Assembly (NCBI RefSeq): GCF_020510425.1
Contig: NZ_JAHBAH010000001.1
Location: 806,001 to 870,000, forward strand
Direction of reading: 5' to 3'
Origin: Quatrionicoccus australiensis
GTDB lineage: Bacteria; Pseudomonadota; Gammaproteobacteria; Burkholderiales; Rhodocyclaceae
DNA length: 64,000 bases
Part shown: positions 5,227 to 15,005 of the stretch, in pieces
Numbering within the stretch: position 1 is the stretch's first letter
How the letters are laid out: the number at the start of each line of letters is the position of its first letter
Position numbers and translations under genes: made by a program
Notes under the pieces: generated by a model
What the model saw: only the letters and a program-made list of their open reading frames with translations
Database searches by the model: none
What the model was told of the DNA's origin: nothing

Positions 5227-6201
5227 TCAGCGCACCGCATCGAGCGGCGAAACCACGCCGCGCCCGCCGCGATTGAGCACATGGGTGTAGATCATCGTCG
5301 TCGACACATCGGAATGGCCGAGCAGTTCCTGCACAGTGCGAATGTCGTAGCCCGATTCCAGCAGATGCGTGGCGAAAGAATGGCGCAGGGTGTGCGTCGA
5401 CGCCGGCTTGGCGATACCCGCCCCCGGCAGCCCCTGCTTGATCGCCCGTTGCAGGGCCTGCTCATGCGTGTGGTGACGACGCTCAATGCCGCTACGCGGA
5501 TCGACCGAAAGACTGCGCGCCGGGAAAGCCCAGAACCATCCCCAGGAAGCCGGAGCAGCGGGATATTTGCGCGCCAGCGCTTCCGGCATCTGCACGCCGG
5601 CCCGCCCGGCCACCCGATCGGCCTCCCACAAAGCACGCACCCGCCCCAGATGGGCCTGCAATTCGACCACCAGCGACAGTGGCAACATCGTCCGCCTGTC
5701 CTTCCCCCCTTTGCCATCGCGCACCGTCAATTCGTGCCGCTCGAAATCGACATCCTTGACCCGCAAGCGCACACACTCCATCAAGCGCATTCCAGTGCCA
5801 TACAGCAGCCGGGCCATCAAGGCATGCGTACCCTGCAGTACCGCCAGCAAGCGCTCAACCTCGGCTCGAGACAAGACCACCGGCACCCTTTTCGGCTTTT
5901 TCGGCCGGTCAAGATCATTCAGCCAGGGCAACTCAAGCCCCAACACTTCGCGATAGAGAAAGAGCAGCGCCGACAACGCCTGCTGGTGCGTTGAAGCAGC
6001 CACATTCAAGTCCGCCGCCAGATGGGAAAGAAAAGCCCTGACCTCAGCCGCGCCCATCTCGCGCGGGTGTTTTCGCCCATGGAATGCGACAAAACGCCTG
6101 ACCCACTCGACATAAGAACACTCCGTCCGTATGCTGTAGTGCTTGTAACGAATGACCTCGCGGACACGCCCGATGAGGGTCAAGGGCTGGCTGGATTCCA
6201 T
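5227..6201 (-). CDS. intI: Integron integrase (tyrosine recombinase)
   Basis: 324 aa. The N-terminal SAM-like domain has the IntI signature (VREVIRYKHYSIRTECSYVEW). Catalytic residues of the tyrosine recombinase domain are present: Arg139 (GTGMRLMECVRLRVKD), His270 and Arg273 (HTLRHSFATHLLESG), His296 (LLGHSDVSTT) and Tyr305. Between them is the extra stretch specific to integron integrases (about residues 200-255, with ARKYPAA, WGWFWAFPA and HTHEQALQRAIK), which binds the extrahelical bases of folded attC. It inserts and excises cassettes at attI and attC. It is oriented away from the cassette array, as in known integrons. A LexA box 26 bases upstream suggests SOS control. No frameshift or lost residue is seen, so it is probably active. 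Confidence 0.96.
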   Translation of the reverse strand: MESSQPLTLIGRVREVIRYKHYSIRTECSYVEWVRRFVAFHGRKHPREMGAAEVRAFLSHLAADLNVAASTHQQALSALLFLYREVLGLELPWLNDLDRPKKPKRVPVVLSRAEVERLLAVLQGTHALMARLLYGTGMRLMECVRLRVKDVDFERHELTVRDGKGGKDRRTMLPLSLVVELQAHLGRVRALWEADRVAGRAGVQMPEALARKYPAAPASWGWFWAFPARSLSVDPRSGIERRHHTHEQALQRAIKQGLPGAGIAKPASTHTLRHSFATHLLESGYDIRTVQELLGHSDVSTTMIYTHVLNRGGRGVVSPLDAVR

Positions 6202-6769: not shown

Positions 6770-6838
6770 CATCCCGGTCAAGGCGCGGCCTTTGGCCGCT
6801 GGGACGTCCCGCAAGCGGGCCGCCCCTTACCTAAAACG
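6764..6838 (+). repeat. attC: attC1
   Basis: Starts with the 5' core CTCTAAC and ends at the G of ACGTTGGGC. The 5' core is the exact complement of GTTAGAG at the attI/cassette 1 junction. The inner part is GC-rich with GGCC-TTTGGCC and CCGC-AAGCGGG short hairpins; it differs from the other attC sites of the array. Confidence 0.8.
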
Positions 6839-6850
6839 TTGGGCATCTCA

Positions 6851-7153
6851 ATGAACGATCCATGGTTCCCTTTGTTGCTCATATTCTTAGCCCTGCTGCC
6901 GTTCTACGTGGCTGACCGGTTGCGCTTCAAAAAGACACAGTCCATTCAGGGTGCATTTCAGTGTTTTAGGTGCGGCACTCAATTGGCGCCAATGCAGTCG
7001 AGCGAAGTCCCTGTTGCAGGTGGCCCTTTGGCATCGACCAAGGCCTGCGTTTGTCCTAGGTGCGCGAAGCGAGACCGAGTTATTCGTCGCCTTACTTGGC
7101 TTGCCATGGCAGGCGCGTTTGCATTCACCGGGTTTCTGCTTTGGCAACAATGA
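6851..7153 (+). CDS. Cassette 2 gene, small membrane protein with zinc-ribbon-like CxxC pairs
   Basis: 100 aa from the ATG of MNDPWFPLLL; an in-frame TTG at the cassette start (base 6839) is also possible but would begin in the recombination core. There is one hydrophobic helix at each end (about residues 6-22 and 82-98), and between them two Cys-x-x-Cys pairs (CFRCG and CPRCAKRD), spaced about 30 residues, which looks like a zinc ribbon exposed on one face of the membrane. No specific family recognised. GC content is lower than the surrounding chromosome. Confidence 0.75.
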   Translation: MNDPWFPLLLIFLALLPFYVADRLRFKKTQSIQGAFQCFRCGTQLAPMQSSEVPVAGGPLASTKACVCPRCAKRDRVIRRLTWLAMAGAFAFTGFLLWQQ

Positions 7154-7154
7154 T

Positions 7155-7220
7155 GCCCAACATCACAATCCACCGGACCTTCGGCAAGCTGCGCTTGCCT
7201 TCGTCCGGTGATTTTCAACG
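7155..7220 (+). repeat. attC: attC2
   Basis: GCCCAAC to ...TTTTCAACG, 66 bases. The central part ACCGGACCTTCGGCAAGC / GCTTGCCTTCGTCCGGT is a near-perfect inverted repeat. The 5' core is the exact complement of GTTGGGC at the start of cassette 2. Nearly identical to attC7 and attC8. Confidence 0.9.
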
Positions 7221-7230
7221 TTAGCCACTA

Positions 7231-7770
7231 ATGGCAGCCGCTCGCCCCTTCCTCGCACCGGTCGAAAAGCGACTACTGGCGTTTGCGTTGGACTCGGCAC
7301 TTCTGCTTCTCGCCGCATTGGTCATTTACGGTGTGCTCGATGCGTTGGGGCAAGGGCCAATGCTACTGATAGGGGCACTCCCTATCCTCTACTTTGGCTA
7401 CCACGTTGGCGCACTGCTAAATCAACGCTTTGCCTTTGGTCGCGTGGTTGCAGGGGTCTCCGTCGTATCAATTCGGGGGGATGCACTGACGCATACTCAA
7501 GCGTTTGTCCGTTCAGTCGCTCGGGCAATTCTCGTGGCCCTGGGCTTCGCAGGAGCATTTCTCAGTCACCAGCCCTGGATCATTGCTATGCCTTGCACAC
7601 TCGAAGTGGCGCTAATCGTTTTAAACCCATGGCGCCAGTCCATTGCCGATGTGTTGGCCGGTACATTAGTAGTGAGAGCTCCTGAGGTTCAGCCTCATCG
7701 TGCCCCTGCGGGTCCAATGTTCAGCCGCACCGACGCCGAATTCGGAAATCCACCAAAATGGCGCGGCTAA
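7231..7770 (+). CDS. Cassette 3 gene, RDD-family membrane protein
   Basis: 179 aa with three to four hydrophobic helices (FALDSALLLLAALVIYGVL, GPMLLIGALPILYFGYHVGALL, SVARAILVALGFAGAFL). The first helix contains the Arg-Leu...Asp-Ser pattern of RDD proteins and the next segment has FGRVVAGVSVV, the typical RDD spacing. RDD proteins are small integral membrane proteins of mostly unknown or transport-related role. The C-terminal 30 residues (EVQPHRAPAGPMFSRTDAEFG) are hydrophilic. The stop codon lies inside the 5' core of attC3. A start 10 bases into the cassette leaves almost no leader. Confidence 0.75.
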   Translation: MAAARPFLAPVEKRLLAFALDSALLLLAALVIYGVLDALGQGPMLLIGALPILYFGYHVGALLNQRFAFGRVVAGVSVVSIRGDALTHTQAFVRSVARAILVALGFAGAFLSHQPWIIAMPCTLEVALIVLNPWRQSIADVLAGTLVVRAPEVQPHRAPAGPMFSRTDAEFGNPPKWRG

Positions 7771-7826
7771 CCCATCATTCCACCGGACCTGCGCGAAAAG
7801 CCGCGCAGGTCCGGTGAATTCAAACG
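7765..7826 (+). repeat. attC: attC3
   Basis: GGCTAAC to ...CAAACG. Central inverted repeat CACCGGACCTGCGCG / CGCGCAGGTCCGGTG. 5' core GGCTAAC is the exact complement of GTTAGCC at the start of cassette 3. Closest to attC6. Confidence 0.88.
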
Positions 7827-7837
7827 TTAGAGGTCAC

Positions 7838-8107
7838 ATGTCGCTATTCGATCTGCTCCTTGTTGGCGCTTTGATTGCCATCGTTTTTTCACTCCTTCGC
7901 GCGAACGATGTGCTCGGCAATAACCCGCATCAGCAAGTTAAAGCCCTCGAAGATTTAGTCGGGCCATTTCCTACAAAAATGTCGTTCGCTGAAAAGCTAC
8001 GCCTCAACAATTTGTATGGGATTTCCCCGACCAACCCACGCCGGGCTCGTTGGCTCGCTGTTGTTGTCGCGCTTTTCTTCCTCGCCATGCTTTGGCTAAA
8101 GCAATGA
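7838..8107 (+). CDS. Cassette 4 gene, small membrane protein
   Basis: 89 aa from the ATG 11 bases into the cassette. One hydrophobic helix at each end (LLLVGALIAIVFSLL and WLAVVVALFFLAMLWL) with a soluble loop of about 45 residues between (NNPHQQVKALEDLVGPFPTKMSFAEKLRLNNLYG). No family recognised. The shape, two helices around a short soluble loop, is like cassette 2, but the loops are unrelated. Confidence 0.7.
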   Translation: MSLFDLLLVGALIAIVFSLLRANDVLGNNPHQQVKALEDLVGPFPTKMSFAEKLRLNNLYGISPTNPRRARWLAVVVALFFLAMLWLKQ

Positions 8108-8108
8108 C

Positions 8109-8187
8109 CCCTAACATTGCGCTCAACGCCGCTCCCTTCGGTCGCTGGACGCTGCGCGATAAGGCCGCGCAGCGCCCGTTAGCTCAA
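8109..8187 (+). repeat. attC: attC4, interrupted near its 3' core by IS copy 1
   Basis: 5' core CCCTAAC, then GC-rich arms (GGACGCTGCGCG / CGCGCAGCG), ending GTTAGCTCAA where the IS begins. The expected 3' core CGTTAGGC is found on the other side of the IS at 9663-9670. The 5' core pairs with the cassette 4 start (GTTAGAG) with one mismatch. Confidence 0.75.
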
Positions 8188-8203
8188 CTACAAGGGCTTC
8201 CCC

Positions 8204-8530
8204 ATTCTTTGCAAGCGTTCTGAAGTTTTATCGTTTCATTCCTGATCCCGTTTTCCTGCTGTTCATCGATTCACTGTCGTGCCGGTGCGAGAAGGTAAAG
8301 GACTGCGGTACTACAACCGGTCATCTTGGGCTTTTGCCCGGACCCTGATGAAAGACGCGCGCGGGGGCCTCATTCGTTAGCCGGGAGTCACTTGCCTCCC
8401 CTGGAGCTAATCAGGCTCTCCCCGCGCGGGTCCAACCCGCTTCACATCAACGCTGCAGTGCTTCGCTGGGCTTGGGCCGCCAGCGATCAGCCAGTGATTC
8501 CTTTCTTTTTCCTATAGACGCTTTTGCTGT
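8204..8530 (-). ncRNA. Candidate guide (bridge/seeker) RNA region of IS copy 1
   Basis: Roughly 330 noncoding bases follow the transposase stop on the same strand, where IS1111 elements are reported to encode their guide RNA. Read on the minus strand it can form a 9-bp stem CGCGCGGGG / CCCCGCGCG (around 8426-8419 and 8366-8358) enclosing two single-strand-like sides and an inner GGGAG / CTCCC hairpin. One side of this loop corresponds on the + strand to CATTCGTTAGCC (8371-8382), which matches 11 of 12 bases of the right element/attC junction. A second hairpin CGCTGG / CCAGCG lies nearer the transposase. RNA expression is not shown; exact ends are unknown. Confidence 0.5.
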
Positions 8531-9556
8531 TCAGGCGGTCTCGTCGATGAGTCGGAAATCATCTCCGTAGTGCATGACCGCCCAGGCCAGTCGCAGGTTC
8601 TTGGCGGCGATGGCGACCGCCGCTTTCCAGTAACCCCGTCGTTCGACCAGACTTCTCGCCCAGCGACTGAACCGGTCCTGCTTCTCTCCGAGGCCGGCGA
8701 GAACGGCGCGGGCACCCATGACGAGCAGGCTGCGCAGGTAGGCATCACCGGCCTTGGTGATTCGGCCCAACCGCGCTTTGCCGCCACTGCTGTATTGGCC
8801 GGGAACAAGGCCAGCCCAGGCGGCGAGTTGCCGACCGTTCTTGAAATCATGACCGCCGCCCAGGCTGGCAACCAGGGCGCTGGCTGTGGTCGGGCCGATG
8901 CCGGGGAGTTGCATGAGCTGCCGGCTGCGTTGGTCTTGTTTGGCAGCTTGGGCGATGGCCTTGTCGTACTCGTCGATGCGTTCATTAAGGCGGTCGGCGT
9001 GTACGAGCAGATCGCCGACGCAGCGGTTGGCCCAGCCGGGGAGTGCTTCAAGGTGGGCACCGATTTCCCGGCGCAGGCGTTCGACTTTCTGCGGTAGAAC
9101 AATGCCGAACTCGCTGATTAGGCCACGCAGGCGGTTATAGAGCGCCGTGCGTTCTTCAATGAAGCCTTGCCGGGTGCGGTGCAGGCAGAGGATGGCTTGT
9201 TGATCGACATCCTTGACCGGGACGAAGCGCATGTTCGGCCGGGTGACGGCTTCGCAGATGGCGGCGGCATCGGCGGCGTCGTTCTTGCCGCGCTTGCCGC
9301 TCATCCGGTACGGCGCCACGAACTTCGGTGCCATCAGCTTGACGGTGTGGCCGAAGCGGCTGAACTCTCTTGCCCAGTAGTGTGCGCCGGAGCAGGCTTC
9401 CATGCCGATCAGGCAGGGTGGCAACTGGGCGACCATTTCGAGCAATTGGCCGCGAACCACCTTGGGCTTGATGAAAACCGCCTTGCCGCTCTGGTCAATA
9501 CCATGCAAAGCGAATACATTCTTGGCGAGATCGATGCCTACGGTGACAATATTCAT
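8531..9556 (-). CDS. IS110-family (IS1111 group) transposase, copy 1
   Basis: 341 aa DEDD-type transposase. The N-terminal RuvC-like part has Asp8 in VGIDLAKNVF, Glu in MEACSGAHYW and the KNDAADAAAI motif with the paired Asp. A long helical middle follows, then the C-terminal Tnp20 domain with the helix-hairpin-helix LPGIGPTTASALVASLGG and the likely catalytic Ser in that region (YSSGGKARLGRITKAG). Such enzymes use an RNA guide to join element and target. It appears intact and differs from the second copy at only two residues seen (Gln/Leu in LLEMVA-x-LPP, Gln/Arg in DQRSR-x-LM). Confidence 0.95.
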   Translation of the reverse strand: MNIVTVGIDLAKNVFALHGIDQSGKAVFIKPKVVRGQLLEMVAQLPPCLIGMEACSGAHYWAREFSRFGHTVKLMAPKFVAPYRMSGKRGKNDAADAAAICEAVTRPNMRFVPVKDVDQQAILCLHRTRQGFIEERTALYNRLRGLISEFGIVLPQKVERLRREIGAHLEALPGWANRCVGDLLVHADRLNERIDEYDKAIAQAAKQDQRSRQLMQLPGIGPTTASALVASLGGGHDFKNGRQLAAWAGLVPGQYSSGGKARLGRITKAGDAYLRSLLVMGARAVLAGLGEKQDRFSRWARSLVERRGYWKAAVAIAAKNLRLAWAVMHYGDDFRLIDETA

Positions 9557-9685
9557 GGACTTCCCCTTTCGAACGAATGATTTGGTCTGGAAACTTAATC
9601 ATGGCAGCAACTGCTGCCGGCGGCTTCCGCCGCTAGTTCGGGACGGGGAAGTCCCTTTCATTCGTTAGGCACATCAGGAGAGAAA

Positions 9686-10300
9686 ATGCGCCATTCGTAC
9701 TTAATGTCTATCGCCTCTATTCTGTTAGTCGCTGGTTGCGCGGCGGTGAACCCCAATCCGAATGTCGGAATGAGAACAACCGACCTTGCATTCGCAAGCG
9801 GCGATTGCCTGAGTGCCAGGAAGCTTGCGGAACCGGCCGCACTCAGAGGTGAGCCTTGGGCTCAATTCCGTATGGGAGCCCTGCTTATCGACAAGAGTTG
9901 CCCCAACCGGTCGTCAAAAGACGCGCTGGAGGCAATTGAGTGGCTTAGTAAGGCTGCCTGTTTTGAGAGCAAATCGCTTTGGGAGCGAGGGAACGAATTG
10001 GTGGTGGGTCCATCGGGCTATTTCAATGCACGCGCGTCGTCGACAAAAGCTGCCATCATGCTGGCAGATGCTTACCTTCATCTTCAAAGAGCCGGCTTGG
10101 CGTGGTACTACATTGACCGTGCTCGGAGCCAATACGCAGAGGGCGAACTACCCTACAACGAGCTAACGAAACAGCTAACGTACATTGAGTCACAGATAGG
10201 ACCGGATCTGTTCTCAAAAATGAAAAAAGAGAAACCGAACCTCTGCATATCCAGGCAGCCGAGTGCCCAACCCAACAGTCAACCGGACGCTGCGCTATAA
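9686..10300 (+). CDS. Cassette 5 gene, predicted lipoprotein with Sel1/TPR-like repeats
   Basis: 204 aa, starts 8 bases after a good ribosome site (AGGAG). The N-terminus is a lipoprotein signal (LMSIASILLVAGC, Cys19). The mature part has repeat-like helices (CLSARKLAEPAALRGEPWAQFRMGALLI, DALEAIEWLSKAACFESKSLWERGNEL, KAAIMLADAYLHLQRAGLAWYYIDRAR) that resemble Sel1-type TPR units, so a role in protein contacts in the periplasm is inferred. The cassette is bracketed by the two IS copies: its 5' end touches the right end of copy 1, and its attC is cut by copy 2. Confidence 0.7.
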   Translation: MRHSYLMSIASILLVAGCAAVNPNPNVGMRTTDLAFASGDCLSARKLAEPAALRGEPWAQFRMGALLIDKSCPNRSSKDALEAIEWLSKAACFESKSLWERGNELVVGPSGYFNARASSTKAAIMLADAYLHLQRAGLAWYYIDRARSQYAEGELPYNELTKQLTYIESQIGPDLFSKMKKEKPNLCISRQPSAQPNSQPDAAL

Positions 10301-10321
10301 AGCCGCGCCTGTTACTTTCAA
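10266..10321 (+). repeat. attC: attC5, interrupted by IS copy 2
   Basis: Begins GCCCAAC inside the end of the cassette 5 coding region and runs through AACCGGACGCTGCG / CCGCGCCTGTTACTTTCAA to the IS border. The 3' core continues at 11799 as CGTTGGCC. The core pairs with the cassette 5 start (GTTAGGC) with one wobble position. Confidence 0.65.
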
Positions 10322-10337
10322 CTACAAGGGCTTCCCC

Positions 10338-10666
10338 ATTCTTTGCAAGCGTTCTGAAGTTTTATCGTTTCATTCCTGATCCCGTTTTCCTGCTGTTCAT
10401 CGATTCACTGTCGTGCCGGTGCGAGAAGGTGAAGGACTGCGGTACTACAACCGGTCATCTTGGGCTTTTGCCCGGACCCTGATGAAAGACGCGCGCGGGG
10501 GCCTCATTCGTTAGCCGGGAGTCACTTGCCTCCCCTGGAGGTAATCAGGCTCTCCCCGCGCGGGTCCAACCCGCTTCACATCAACGCTGCAGTGCTTCGC
10601 TGGGCTTGGGCCGCCAGCGACCAGCCGGTGATTCCTTTCTTTTTTCCTATAGACGCTTTTTGCTGT
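10338..10666 (-). ncRNA. Candidate guide RNA region of IS copy 2
   Basis: Same layout as in copy 1. CATTCGTTAGCC is kept (10505-10516). In the opposite side of the predicted loop there is one substitution relative to copy 1 (G10541 for C8407), turning the minus-strand loop text GATTAGCTCC into GATTACCTCC. If this is a target guide, the two copies may differ in preferred attC. Inference only. Confidence 0.45.
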
Positions 10667-11692
10667 TCACGCGGTCTCGTCGATGAGTCGGAAATCATCT
10701 CCGTAGTGCATGACCGCCCAGGCCAGTCGCAGGTTCTTGGCGGCGATGGCGACCGCCGCTTTCCAGTAACCCCGTCGTTCGACCAGACTTCTCGCCCAGC
10801 GACTGAACCGGTCCTGCTTCTCTCCGAGGCCGGCGAGAACGGCGCGGGCACCCATGACGAGCAGGCTGCGCAGGTAGGCATCACCGGCCTTAGTGATCCG
10901 CCCCAGCCGGGCTTTGCCGCCACTGCTGTATTGGCCGGGAACGAGTCCGGCCCAAGCGGCGAGTTGCCGACCGTTCTTGAAATCATGACCACCACCCAGG
11001 CTGGCAACCAGGGCGCTGGCTGTGGTCGGGCCGATGCCAGGGAGTTGCATCAGGCGCCGGCTGCGCTGGTCTTGTTTGGCAGCTTGGGCAATGGCTTTGT
11101 CGTACTCGTCGATGCGTTCATTAAGGCGGTCGGCGTGTACGAGCAGATCGCCGACGCAGCGGTTGGCCCAGCCGGGGAGTGCTTCAAGGTGGGCACCGAT
11201 TTCCCGGCGCAGGCGTTCGACTTTCTGCGGTAGAACAATGCCGAACTCGCTGATTAGGCCACGCAGGCGGTTATAGAGCGCCGTGCGTTCTTCAATGAAG
11301 CCTTGCCGGGTGCGGTGCAGGCAGAGGATGGCTTGTTGATCGACATCCTTGACCGGGACGAAGCGCATGTTCGGCCGGGTGACGGCTTCGCAGATGGCGG
11401 CGGCATCGGCGGCGTCGTTCTTGCCACGCTTGCCGCTCATCCGGTACGGCGCCACGAACTTCGGTGCCATCAGCTTGACGGTGTGGCCGAAGCGGCTGAA
11501 CTCTCTTGCCCAGTAGTGTGCGCCGGAGCAGGCTTCCATGCCGATCAGGCACGGCGGCAACAGGGCGACCATTTCGAGCAATTGGCCGCGAACCACCTTG
11601 GGCTTGATGAAAACCGCCTTGCCGCTCTGGTCAATACCATGCAAAGCGAATACATTCTTGGCGAGATCGATGCCTACGGTGACAATATTCAT
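10667..11692 (-). CDS. IS110-family (IS1111 group) transposase, copy 2
   Basis: 341 aa, intact, same motifs as copy 1 (VGIDLAKN, MEACSGAHYW, KNDAADAAAI, LPGIGPTTAS). The few nucleotide differences between the copies are mostly synonymous, which suggests recent transposition or gene conversion. Both copies can in principle supply transposase in trans to each other. Confidence 0.95.
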   Translation of the reverse strand: MNIVTVGIDLAKNVFALHGIDQSGKAVFIKPKVVRGQLLEMVALLPPCLIGMEACSGAHYWAREFSRFGHTVKLMAPKFVAPYRMSGKRGKNDAADAAAICEAVTRPNMRFVPVKDVDQQAILCLHRTRQGFIEERTALYNRLRGLISEFGIVLPQKVERLRREIGAHLEALPGWANRCVGDLLVHADRLNERIDEYDKAIAQAAKQDQRSRRLMQLPGIGPTTASALVASLGGGHDFKNGRQLAAWAGLVPGQYSSGGKARLGRITKAGDAYLRSLLVMGARAVLAGLGEKQDRFSRWARSLVERRGYWKAAVAIAAKNLRLAWAVMHYGDDFRLIDETA

Positions 11693-11809
11693 GGACTTCC
11701 CCTTTCGAACGAATGATTTGGTCTGGAAACTTAATCATGGCAGCAACTGCTGCCGGCGGCTTCCGCCGCTAGTTCGGGACGGGGAAGTCCCTTTCATTCG
11801 TTGGCCGTC

Positions 11810-12394
11810 ATGAGAGTCTATCGCCGCCACTTTCTGAAAATGCTCAGTTTCAGCGTGTTGCTTGCCGGTGTCGCCTCTTCTGCAAGCGCGAAAGGAGAAT
11901 CAATGGAGCCGAAGAAGTTCTGGGAAATAGTTGGCGCAGTAAAAAAATCAGCGGGAAGTGATCTTGAGTCTCGCCCAAGAGTATTGGAACAAAAACTGAG
12001 CGCCCTCCCAACGTCGCACATTCAGGCATTCCAGCGTACCTATGAGAGTTTCTTGCTGAATGCAAACCGTTGGAGTCTTTGGGGTGCTGCGTATCTCATG
12101 AATGGCGGCTGCTCAGACGATGGATTTAAATACTTCCGAGACTGGCTGATCTCAGAAGGGCAGGATGTTTACGAGAGCGCCATTGCAGATCCGGACTCAT
12201 TGGCTTCTTTCGCAAAGAGAGATTTCTTTGAGCTTGAGCTTTATGGATACTCTGCGCTGCATGCCTTTGCGCAAGCTGGCGCCGGGGAACTGGAGCGTGA
12301 TTTCAGCTTAGAGATTGCAAGTCCAACGGGGGTAGAGTGGAGGGAAGATGATCTTCCTAAGCTATTTCCAAAGTTGGCAGCGAAGTACCTGTAG
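11810..12394 (+). CDS. Cassette 6 gene, DUF4240-like protein with a twin-arginine-type signal
   Basis: 194 aa from the ATG of MRVYRRHFLKML. The first 30 residues (RRHFLKMLSFSVLLAGVASSASA) look like a Tat signal peptide. From residue 32 (MEPKKFWEIVGAVKK) the protein resembles the DUF4240 family: WSLWGAAYLMNGGCSDDGFKYFRDWLISEGQDVYESAIADPDSLA is the typical conserved block. DUF4240 proteins are usually cytoplasmic and unsigned, so the signal is unusual. Role unknown. The attC6 site begins 18 bases after the stop. Confidence 0.75.
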   Translation: MRVYRRHFLKMLSFSVLLAGVASSASAKGESMEPKKFWEIVGAVKKSAGSDLESRPRVLEQKLSALPTSHIQAFQRTYESFLLNANRWSLWGAAYLMNGGCSDDGFKYFRDWLISEGQDVYESAIADPDSLASFAKRDFFELELYGYSALHAFAQAGAGELERDFSLEIASPTGVEWREDDLPKLFPKLAAKYL

Positions 12395-12412
12395 GTGGCC
12401 CGCCGAAATGAC

Positions 12413-12475
12413 GGCCAACCCCACATATCACCGGACCTTGCGCGTAAAGCCGCGCAAGTCCGGTGAATTTCGACG
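12413..12475 (+). repeat. attC: attC6
   Basis: GGCCAAC to ...TTTCGACG; inverted arms TCACCGGACCTTGCGCG / CGCGCAAGTCCGGTGA. 5' core is the exact complement of GTTGGCC, the start of cassette 6 right after IS copy 2. This shows that the IS entered at the cassette border and did not remove the cassette start. Confidence 0.9.
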
Positions 12476-12485
12476 TTAGAACGCA

Positions 12486-12716
12486 ATGGCAATTCCCATC
12501 GGAATCGAAGGCCGCATATCAAACAGCGAACACCATTCGCATGTTGTCGTGGTGCAAGACGACACCGGCAATACGGGCGGATTCCTCATCTTTGAATCAT
12601 GGGCGGGTTCTGATGGCCCCAACCCAAGCGGAGCCTTTGATAGTTGGGTGGAAAGCATTTCCGCGCTTGAGCAGTTCTTTGCAGAATCGGGCTGGGTTGT
12701 TCAATGGAAGTCATAA
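12486..12716 (+). CDS. Cassette 7 gene A, hypothetical protein
   Basis: 76 aa, starting at the ATG 10 bases into the cassette. Soluble and acidic, no signal (MAIPIGIEGRISN, HVVVVQDDTGNTGGFLIFES, FFAESGWVVQWKS). No family recognised. It shares its cassette with a second reading frame 43 bases downstream. Confidence 0.7.
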   Translation: MAIPIGIEGRISNSEHHSHVVVVQDDTGNTGGFLIFESWAGSDGPNPSGAFDSWVESISALEQFFAESGWVVQWKS

Positions 12717-12759
12717 ACTTTACCGTGGCTTTCAGGCCCGCATCTAACCAAAGCCAATC

Positions 12760-12987
12760 ATGAGTTGGTTTTTTTCAAAATCTCGCACTGGCAAGGTCAT
12801 AGAAGGGGGCTTAAATCTCCTTGATGGCGCTGTTGGTTTCGGCTTGTTATCCGGGGCGGCTGTTGTCATGGCGTTCGGCAACTTCCTCTTAGGTGGTGTG
12901 CTTGGTGCTTTCGCCCTTGGGGTGTTCGCTCGGTTGAGCCGCCGCACAAAGTCCAACGCAGCCTCATCCCCAAAAAAACGCACATGA
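12760..12987 (+). CDS. Cassette 7 gene B, small Gly-rich membrane protein
   Basis: 75 aa. One long hydrophobic, Gly-rich span (about residues 24-57: GAVGFGLLSGAAVVMAFGNFLLGGVLGAFALGVF) that may form a helical hairpin, with a basic N-terminus (KSRTGKVIEGG) and a basic C-terminus (RLSRRTKSNAASSPKKRT). Toxin-like or phage-holin-like shape is possible but cannot be claimed. It lies in the same cassette as gene A with no complete attC between. Confidence 0.6.
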   Translation: MSWFFSKSRTGKVIEGGLNLLDGAVGFGLLSGAAVVMAFGNFLLGGVLGAFALGVFARLSRRTKSNAASSPKKRT

Positions 12988-13000
12988 ATAACGCGTTGCT

Positions 13001-13066
13001 TTCTAACATCACAATCCACCGGACCTCCGGCAAGCTGCGCTTGCCTCCGTCCGGTGATTTTCAACG
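13001..13066 (+). repeat. attC: attC7
   Basis: TTCTAAC to ...TTTTCAACG. The core TTCTAAC is the exact complement of GTTAGAA, which opens the cassette at 12475-12481, proving that both cassette 7 genes belong to one cassette. The arms are almost identical to attC2 and attC8. Confidence 0.9.
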
Positions 13067-13081
13067 TTGGGCGTCTTGAGT

Positions 13082-13603
13082 ATGCGCACTATCTTCGTCG
13101 CTCAGGCTCTCTTTGCCACTTTCGCTCTGTCAGTGGTCTCCTTCGCTGCCTTCGCAAGAGAGGAACGCAGTCTTACGACCGCGGCACAAAATTTCATTGT
13201 GAAGGGGGCGGAACCAACGCTAAGGAAGTGCGCCCTTCCTAAACCTCGCTGCGGTGACGCCAAGCTCCTTGGTAACGAGAATCTCCCAGGAGAAAGCAAC
13301 GACGAAAAGAGGCTTACTCGAATCATCACCTTTGACGGTCTCGAAATTGCGCTAACCATTCCAGTAATGAACCGACATCGCTACCTAGTGGGGAAAGTCG
13401 AGATATCCAGTTCCAAGTGGCCCGTCGACCACGGACTCCAAGTTGGTCAGCTTCAAAACAGGGTTGTCGATGTACTTGGCCTCCCAACAACCGAAGCCGG
13501 CAACTGCATTCAATACTTCAACGAAATTTCTCAGAGTTCGGTGGGCTTCTGCTTTTCCAGCGGTCGTATTGCAAAAATCCTGTGGGAGCGCTGGATTGAC
13601 TGA
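13082..13603 (+). CDS. Cassette 8 gene, secreted hypothetical protein
   Basis: 173 aa from the ATG of MRTIFVAQALFAT; an in-frame TTG sits at the cassette border (13067) but would start in the recombination core. A clear Sec signal peptide (FVAQALFATFALSVVSFAAFA) is followed by a soluble domain with several Cys (KCALPKPRCGDA, NCIQYF, GFCFSSGRI). No family recognised. The Cys content fits a periplasmic disulfide-bonded protein. Confidence 0.7.
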   Translation: MRTIFVAQALFATFALSVVSFAAFAREERSLTTAAQNFIVKGAEPTLRKCALPKPRCGDAKLLGNENLPGESNDEKRLTRIITFDGLEIALTIPVMNRHRYLVGKVEISSSKWPVDHGLQVGQLQNRVVDVLGLPTTEAGNCIQYFNEISQSSVGFCFSSGRIAKILWERWID

Positions 13604-13606
13604 AAC

Positions 13607-13672
13607 GCCCAACATCACAATCCACCGGACCTCCGGCAAGCTGCGCTTGCCTGCGTCCAGTGATTTACAACG
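13607..13672 (+). repeat. attC: attC8
   Basis: GCCCAAC to ...TTACAACG. The exact complement of GTTGGGC at the start of cassette 8. Same arms as attC2 and attC7 with two or three substitutions. Confidence 0.9.
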
Positions 13673-13710
13673 TTGGGCATCAACCTACTTCTTTCCTTCA
13701 CTCGCCGACG

Positions 13711-14205
13711 ATGAACACCCAAATTCCCGCAATCGCAATCGTTCTCTCACTTTCGGTGGCGTCATGCGCAACTCGATATGAGCCGCCACCTGATGGCGTG
13801 AGAAGCGCTTCCGTTTTTCTAATCGGCAATGGTGGTCAAGTGCCGGGCGGACGAAACAACATCGCCGTAAATATCGCGGATCCGTCTTCTTGCGAAAATT
13901 TACAGCACATAGGACCGGTTGCGGCAGGCGAAACAAAGGAACTGAAGCTTCGTGTAGGGGTACCAGTCACAATCAAGCTCAGCTACTTTCGCCTCCGACC
14001 GGAGCCCGTAATAGGGAAGGGGCCTATTGAAAATTGCCAAGACGGAGTTACGTTCACACCCCAAGATGGCAAGGAATATCAAGTCGGTTTGGATTCAAGA
14101 GCCCTACGGTATATGAGGATGAGGTGTGACAACGAAGTGAGAGTGCGCTCCGTCGGCGAAAAGGTCTGGAAGAACGCAGAACGTGAGCGAGTTTGCGCAG
14201 ATTAG
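13711..14205 (+). CDS. Cassette 9 gene, predicted lipoprotein
   Basis: 164 aa from the ATG of MNTQIPAIAI. Lipoprotein signal IVLSLSVASC with Cys18. The mature domain has a PEGA-like or carboxypeptidase-regulatory-like feel (SVFLIGNGGQVPGGRNNIAVNI, GPVAAGETKELKLRVGVPVTIKLSYFRLRP, FTPQDGKEYQVGLD), suggesting a beta-sandwich. Three Cys pairs may be oxidised. No family was recognised with confidence. Confidence 0.65.
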   Translation: MNTQIPAIAIVLSLSVASCATRYEPPPDGVRSASVFLIGNGGQVPGGRNNIAVNIADPSSCENLQHIGPVAAGETKELKLRVGVPVTIKLSYFRLRPEPVIGKGPIENCQDGVTFTPQDGKEYQVGLDSRALRYMRMRCDNEVRVRSVGEKVWKNAERERVCAD

Positions 14206-14224
14206 CGATGACGAATCAAATGCG

Positions 14225-14284
14225 CCCTAACATGGTGGACAACCGGACCTACGCGAAAAGCCGTGCAGGCCGGTTACCTTCACG
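14225..14284 (+). repeat. attC: attC9, interrupted by an IS1182-like remnant
   Basis: 5' core CCCTAAC, arms AACCGGACCTACGCG / CGTGCAGGCCGGTT, then CACGTT where the remnant begins. The rest of a core, GTTAGAGG, appears at 15099 past the remnant. GTT is present on both sides, a possible 3-base target duplication. Confidence 0.7.
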
Positions 14285-14327
14285 TTGACGCTGTAGAAAA
14301 ACCCTTTTCCAGCCCGATTTTCAGCAA

Positions 14328-14452: not shown

Positions 14453-15005
14453 CTACTGCCCGAACCCGTGATGTGCCAGCTTCTCGATGTTGTGCACCAG
14501 GCAATACAGTTTCCACTGCGTATCAACCATCTGCTGCCCACGTAGCGTAAACCGATCCAAGCGCTTGTTGTGCCTCAGGTTGCCAAACACCGGTTCGACC
14601 GTGGCAAATCTCCTTCCGTAACGGGCTTTGCCTTCTTCACTGTCGATGGCCCGCTTCATCCGGTCGGTGTGGCTTTCTTCCGTTGTATCGGCCTTGCCGC
14701 GGAAGAGGGCGACCTGCCGGACTTGGCTCATCTCTGATGACGTGTTCGCGGCACAGCCGCTCGATGCCCCGGCTGCTCACCACACCCTGGGTACAGGCGC
14801 AGAAAATGACCTTGAGCAGCATCCATGGCGGGTAGGCGCAGGCGCCGCTCTGGTCGTTACGGTAACGGGTATCGAAGAGGGAAAGGTCGAATTCGTGCTC
14901 AATCAGGTGATGCACGGCATGCTCGAAACTGCCTGGCAGCAGTTGCTTCTCCATATCCACCGCCAGAAACCTCGGGCTGGTATCGATTGCTTTGTAGCGG
15001 GCCAT
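14453..15005 (-). pseudogene. Broken IS1182-family transposase
   Basis: The N-terminal part (from 15005: MARYKAIDTSPRFLAVDMEK, then SFEHAVHHLIEHEFDLSLFDTRYRND, PPWMLLKVIFCACTQGVVSSRGIERLCREH) is followed, after a jump and frame change near 14730, by the C-terminal part (KADTTEESHTDRMKRAIDSEEGKARYGRRF, VEPVFGNLRHNKRLDRFTLRG, KLYCLVHNIEKLAH). About 250 middle residues with the catalytic Asp residues are missing. It is a dead gene. Confidence 0.85.

Follow-up and report, generated by a model that had tools for sequence, protein, structure and literature searches.

A seekRNA, the IS1111 form of bridge RNA, is very probably encoded in the 3' noncoding region of an IS1111-type element of Quatrionicoccus australiensis, where it would guide the transposase to integron attC sites by means of the two strands of an internal loop. 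The window, i.e. the whole stretch of DNA analysed (G000:C1:806001-870000, 64,000 nt), carries two copies of the element. In the first of them the RNA is located at 8339-8436 on the minus strand, and it is real and conserved as a structure. One of its loop strands, here called B, is expected to read the R' box of attC, and the other, T, probably reads the L' box, R' and L' being the names of attC boxes.

According to the proposed mechanism, the transposase would bind the seekRNA and use the two internal-loop strands to find attC. In the left flank (YTAAC|G), strand B would base-pair with the R' box on the bottom strand; in the right flank, the partner of strand T would be the top strand across the L' box. 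A circular intermediate would then insert at the R' boundary in a single orientation. We infer transcription, transposase binding, circle formation and RNA-guided insertion from published relatives.

The integron and its attC array

A chromosomal integron is present in the window. It starts with a tyrosine recombinase gene at 5227-6201 (minus strand; Pfam Phage_integrase and Phage_int_SAM_4), which stands at the head of an array of cassettes with attC sites and which, judging from this array, would be the integrase gene intI. Nine attC sites, picked by eye and then scored against the guides, lie at 6820-14290, four being TTA-type and five TGA-type according to their L' box. The IS is found in two of the four TTA-type sites and in none of the five TGA-type sites, numbers that are too small to count. 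Automatic attC finding performed poorly: one run returned 19 candidates, two of which were accepted, and another returned five in the window array, with three accepted, and three around the third copy of the element (see below), with none accepted.

Among the cassette genes, the one at 7231-7770 encodes an RDD family protein, and the one at 11801-12394, directly after the second IS copy, a DUF4240 protein (Pfam PF14024). Just past the last attC of the array, transposase remnants extend over 14453-15005 on the minus strand in two overlapping frames, with the Pfam domains DDE_Tnp_1_6 at 14453-14731 and, slightly below the cut-off, DUF772 at 14637-15005.

Copies, transposase and ends of the element

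Copy 1 (8189-9663, 1475 bp) and copy 2 (10323-11799, 1477 bp), both with the gene on the minus strand and both delimited by subterminal inverted repeats and flank joining, are inserted at two different attC sites and share 97.1% identity over 1539 bp (blastn). A third copy, likewise at an attC, resides at 2.66 Mb in the same genome (G000:C1). The 341-aa transposase is intact in all three copies, and is encoded at 8531-9556 in copy 1 and at 10667-11692 in copy 2, both on the minus strand. It is an IS1111-family enzyme of the IS110-type DEDD kind, with the Transposase_20 domain and the GL-P----S(T)G motif; the domains (Pfam DEDD_Tnp_IS110 and Transposase_20) were checked in copy 1, where the motif reads GLVPGQYSSG. 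Two solved structures are matched by the transposase sequence, those of the ISCro4 and IS621 transposases, the latter (8wt6) with an E-value of 3.4e-10.

The anatomy of the ends is that of IS1111 elements, with extensions of 7 bp on the left and 3 bp on the right of 12-bp repeats that match at 10 of 12 positions. In copy 1, the left end (9645-9663, minus strand) consists of the extension GAATGAA and the subterminal inverted repeat AGGGACTTCCCC, and the right end (8189-8203, minus strand) of the repeat GGGGAAGCCCTT and the extension GTA. A long noncoding region of the IS1111 type separates the gene stop from the right end (342-344 nt), and 107 bp lie upstream of the gene. Throughout the collected homologues, ends were located in 65 of 83 elements by a search pattern that required NAATG and favoured a terminal TA; those of L024 were set by hand.

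Rejoining of the flanks, in cassette orientation, restores an uninterrupted attC end in all three copies (GTTAGCTCAAC joined to GTTAGGC, GTTACTTTCAAC to GTTGGCC and TTACCTAAAAC to GTTAGCC), without extra bases and with one base ambiguous. The site split by copy 1 is the attC of the upstream cassette; it occupies 8109-8188 on the plus strand, with R'' assigned by eye, and resumes at 9664-9670 with the R' box GTTAGGC. All three genome copies are in the same orientation and directly precede the GTT of the R' box, as in IS1111-attC insertions. This IS1111-attC group of elements inserted at attC was reportedly described by Tetu and Holmes in 2008 and by Post and Hall in 2009.

Joining the right end to the left end, as in a circle, creates a -10-like TAGAAT across the joint. 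The TA at 8189-8190 and the NAAT at 9660-9663, and likewise the ends of other elements, would make up a TANAAT -10 box only once circularised. In 75 rows, with two insertions counted twice, the joint reads TANAAT in 73, and in 70 the -10 of the best sigma-70-like site coincides exactly with it, counts that are partly circular because the ends were found with a pattern requiring NAATG and favouring TA. A -10 box at the circle junction may explain the constant AATG of the left end. For ISEc11, the available text of PMC11187229 describes a promoter at the junction.

A conserved RNA fold downstream of the transposase gene

Homologues were drawn from 80 loci with related transposases and from further copies within the genus. 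The RNA was found in 70 of 77 elements, in 63 distinct forms. Alignment A1 includes 44 of these 63; the 19 omitted before counting have longer hairpins in most cases, and some are near-repeats. The RNAalifold prediction for the 44 RNAs has three paired elements (outer stem, CCU/AGG stem and apical hairpin), and each side has a single unpaired strand. The earlier note had staked its proposal of a guide RNA on structural conservation in homologues, and the fold is indeed kept, with changes on both sides (compensatory) in 13 of the 14 base pairs (44 sequences). Paired cells amount to 92.3%, compared with 68.3% in shuffled alignments (0/500 as good) and at most 52.8% with slid partners; covariation reaches 0.640, compared with 0.215 after shuffling (none of 500 as high), and stays at or below 0.142 when the partners are slid.

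A covariance model (CM) trained on 34 RNAs from outside the genus recovers two places in the window at E ~1e-17, both on the minus strand: 8339-8436 in copy 1 (83.2 bits, E 1.2e-17) and 10473-10570 in copy 2 (82.3 bits, E 1.8e-17). Each is a seekRNA core made up of the outer stem, the CCU/AGG stem, two loop strands and the apical hairpin, and the next best match in the window has an E-value of 1.3. In the whole genome, matches at E <=0.001 are confined to the three IS copies. Under stricter filters, 44 of 399 genomes of the order, its own included, have a match at E <=1e-6. No Rfam family matches in the window at gathering scores, and none in 8150-8600 even at E up to 1. A terminator or attenuator was considered as the identity of the region and rejected. 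Features of the seekRNA class found here are a conserved folded RNA in the noncoding region, loop strands that match the top and bottom strands of the target, and the position of T 5' of B.

The candidate had been placed at 8204-8530, in the 3' noncoding part of an attC-targeting IS1111 element, and it does look like an RNA of the seekRNA/bridge-RNA type. That range is the 3' noncoding region, but the RNA proper is the narrower minus-strand segment given above. The GC stem said to close an internal loop is present on the minus strand; the fold of 8346-8430 has a free energy of -40.3 kcal/mol (z -2.87), equalled by 3 of 200 shuffles. One side of the loop corresponds, as reported, to the plus-strand 12-mer CATTCGTTAGCC at 8371-8382. 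IS/attC junctions match this 12-mer in 11 of 12 bases at both window copies, again as reported, and in 12 of 12 at the third copy.

Five of the 12 bases (CATTC) belong to the left end of the IS itself and not to the target. In 3000 shuffles the full match is equalled 2 times for copy 1, 5 times for copy 2 and never for copy 3, and that of the seven target bases alone 1665, 2218 and 85 times. Since at both window copies the seven target bases match equally well in over half of the shuffles, the 12-mer says little by itself about target reading; such a single match could not carry the claim, and homologues were therefore needed; their comparison supports target reading strongly. The statement that the loop reads attC held in part: the strand reading R' is there, but bases of the IS end had been counted as target and the strand reading L' had been overlooked.

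Loop strands follow the flanks of insertions

In copy 1, strand T (GATTAGCTCCAG, 8401-8412, minus strand) complements the right flank's top strand, and its TTAGCTC equals the L' box of its own attC at 7 of 7 positions. Strand B (GGCTAACGAATG, 8371-8382, minus strand) corresponds to the left flank, the attC R' box, and runs on as the IS left end. Copy 2 has the same B (GGCTAACGAATG, 10505-10516) and a T that is one base off that of copy 1 (GATTACCTCCAG, 10535-10546), both on the minus strand.

The two strands were cut without target information in 58 rows, 50 by fold and 8 by sequence pattern. Two of these are short of right flank, leaving 56 for T, which was scored as the reverse complement of the right flank with small register freedom. 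On average, 7.23 of 10 positions of T agree with the right flank of the same element and 4.57 with shuffled flanks (56 rows), and for B 5.95 of 7 positions agree with the left flank of the same element and 4.17 with shuffled ones (55 rows); in neither case did any of 20,000 shuffles do as well. Two insertions are counted twice in these sets (L004/L115 and L005/L116). With the duplicates removed, the values become 7.28 vs 4.55 for T (54 rows) and 5.92 vs 4.11 for B (53 rows), and with one element per distinct guide pair 7.37 vs 4.38 (41) and 5.97 vs 3.88 (40), with 0/20,000 throughout.

The covariation was also assessed on held-out insertions from other families of the order. For this set, 60 places were fetched and ends were found for 23 of 61 RNAs, giving 21 insertions after two repeats were dropped. 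Model R1, which was used to cut their loops, had been trained on the first set, in which no held-out T guide occurs. The averages are 6.81 vs 4.12 for T and 5.48 vs 3.08 for B (0/20,000 each), and the result is likewise 0/20,000 with one insertion per distinct T guide (n=17). Variation of the loop together with the insertion site among homologues, the other point on which the earlier note had made its proposal depend, is accordingly present.

Four elements whose left flank does not contain the AAC of R' (L018, L028, L071 and L081) have loops that fit their own sites of non-attC type, with T at 8-10/10 and B at 5-6/7. A poor T match (<=5/10) was seen in 7 of 54 distinct insertions: L007, L014, L020, L056, L067, L115 and L121. 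Among the held-out insertions, the match is poor for both strands of L223 (4 for T and 3 for B) and for strand B of L182 (4) and L207 (3). The three T bases that adjoin the junction do not match in copies 1-3.

Single-base guide differences among near-identical copies

Nineteen close attC-type elements carry the T variants TTAGCTC, TTACCTC, TTAACTC, TTACCTA, TTAGCTA and TCACCTC. These match their own flank at 5.74 of 7 positions, compared with 5.13 for shuffled flanks (0/50,000); in the 15 elements of the genus, 16 of 50,000 shuffles were as good. At one variable T position, guide and site agree in 14 of the 19. Copy 1, with the guide TTAGCTC, is located at TTAGCTC, the sole attC among the nine of the array that fits at 7/7. 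Copies 2 and 3, both with TTACCTC, are located at TTACTTT and TTACCTA. The site of copy 2 fits its guide at 5/7, though three other attCs of the array fit at 6/7 (one of them holds copy 1), and L121 has the same RNA as copy 1, yet its site is TTACCTT. This fine-scale match is only suggestive, because copies of one genome are not independent and the attCs within an array are alike.

The spacing from the L' match to the junction is 3 nt in copy 1 and 4 nt in copies 2 and 3, with loop length unchanged. Loop strands of equal length likewise go with different distances from L' match to insertion point among L119, L120, L124, L011 and the strand at 8401-8412 of the window.

Alternative explanations

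That the 12-base match is due to chance, or is a copy of the IS end, would account for the frequent equalling of the seven target bases in shuffles at the window copies, but we give this account next to no probability, as two loop strands covary with two flanks across the family and do so again on held-out insertions. A role without guide function, as a conserved regulatory RNA or as a transposase-binding DNA site, is likewise very improbable for the region. A conserved stem situated between the gene and the right end would suit such a role, but the loop strands vary and follow the flanks, and the Rfam searches described above returned no family.

A guide in which only strand B acts on attC, with T resembling L' since L' boxes are alike within a lineage, is improbable, though it has several observations in its favour: the T register differs between copies of identical loop length, the junction-adjoining T bases mismatch in copies 1-3, and copy 2 and L121 lie at L' boxes that fit their guides at just 5/7. 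Against this, the match of T to its flank is strong family-wide, non-attC relatives included; it holds within the attC-type elements, both in the 19 and in the 15 of the genus; and copy 1 occupies the one attC, among nine, that its guide matches in full. Somewhat less improbable, but still unlikely, is a B strand that spans the junction, pairing through its terminal GAATGA with the element's own left end so that target and donor would be read on one strand. In this element group B does equal the left junction including the left end, the tail is AATG in 26 of 39 rows with a left end starting with G (two insertions counted twice), and in ISEc11 circle formation needs intact target flanks, according to the available text of PMC11187229. 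The left-end AATG, on the other hand, is nearly constant in a search that required it, which puts it beyond the covariation test; the 16 rows whose core bases are different mostly have GATC, GATT or GATG as their tail, with a match of only 2.31 of 4; and the AATG of the DNA is explicable by the -10 box of the circle junction, with the partly circular count of 73/75 rows. The reading we prefer remains that of two loop strands, with R' read by B and probably L' by T.

Comparison with known systems

In the seekRNA class, an RNA of 70-100 nt is bound by the transposase and needed for transposition. The available text of Siddiquee et al. 2024 (PMC11187229) reports seekRNAs purified with transposase from the attC-targeting ISKpn4 and ISPst6, and an attC seekRNA predicted for ISPa25, whose transposase is 46% identical to TnpKpn4. 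A natural attC guide, which had seemed unusual in the earlier note, was thus already on record in that text, and the one described here is a fresh example of a known guide type. It resembles ISKpn4 and ISPst6 in having a noncoding region downstream of the transposase gene, a short folded RNA, an attC target at one end of the site, and two segments matching the top (5') and bottom (3') strands of the target. The RNAs differ in that those were purified with transposase, whereas ours is known from sequence and likened to them by description. ISPa25 is similar in its attC-class target and predicted guide, but has a diverged transposase, and is again likened by description. In three plasmid searches by transposase, no record with the name ISKpn4, ISPst6 or ISPa25 was among the matches listed (60, 60 and 30, each out of at least 5000).

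ISEc11 and ISXne4, IS1111-family elements with natural redirection, provide a parallel in that loops of relatives differ with the target, as they do here between attC-type and other relatives. Their targets are non-attC and much of the loop differs, whereas here single bases also differ between near-identical copies. Bridge RNAs were predicted in 93.0% of IS1111 elements, as stated in the available part of Durrant et al. 2024 (PMC11208160). From the same part of that paper, IS621 shares with our element a DEDD recombinase and a structured noncoding RNA with an internal loop reading both target strands, but IS621, like the IS110 group to which it belongs, has a left-side RNA in which the donor is bound by a simple internal loop.

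What appears new here, and is suggested by the sequences, is the occurrence of near-identical copies with single-base guide differences that tend, with exceptions, to fit the attC each copy occupies. The literature search, which covered listings of papers and the available text of the two articles cited above, returned no description of co-resident copies whose guides differ by single bases. The dozens of elements compared here offer independent comparative evidence that IS1111 loop strands follow insertion sites, and one-base guide changes between near-identical copies are documented within one genus. It is possible, though we consider it less than probable, that attC-hunting IS1111 elements use a split guide which reads both attC boxes separately and tolerates varied spacing, and that co-resident copies diversify by single bases of the L' strand toward different attC subclasses. 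If the L' strand were truly used, such copies would amount to point mutants, made by nature, of a programmable guide. They could show how many mismatches are tolerated and what spacing, and would help to explain how integron cassette arrays gather insertion sequences.

Several copies with the same guide were observed within single genomes: five in G663, and two of one guide together with four of another in G627. In G660 there are six places, of which four were fetched, with one guide. The multi-copy loci are L171-L175, L177-L178, L199-L202 and L225-L228. Genomes of this kind amount to natural replicates in which the tolerance of target choice could be measured.
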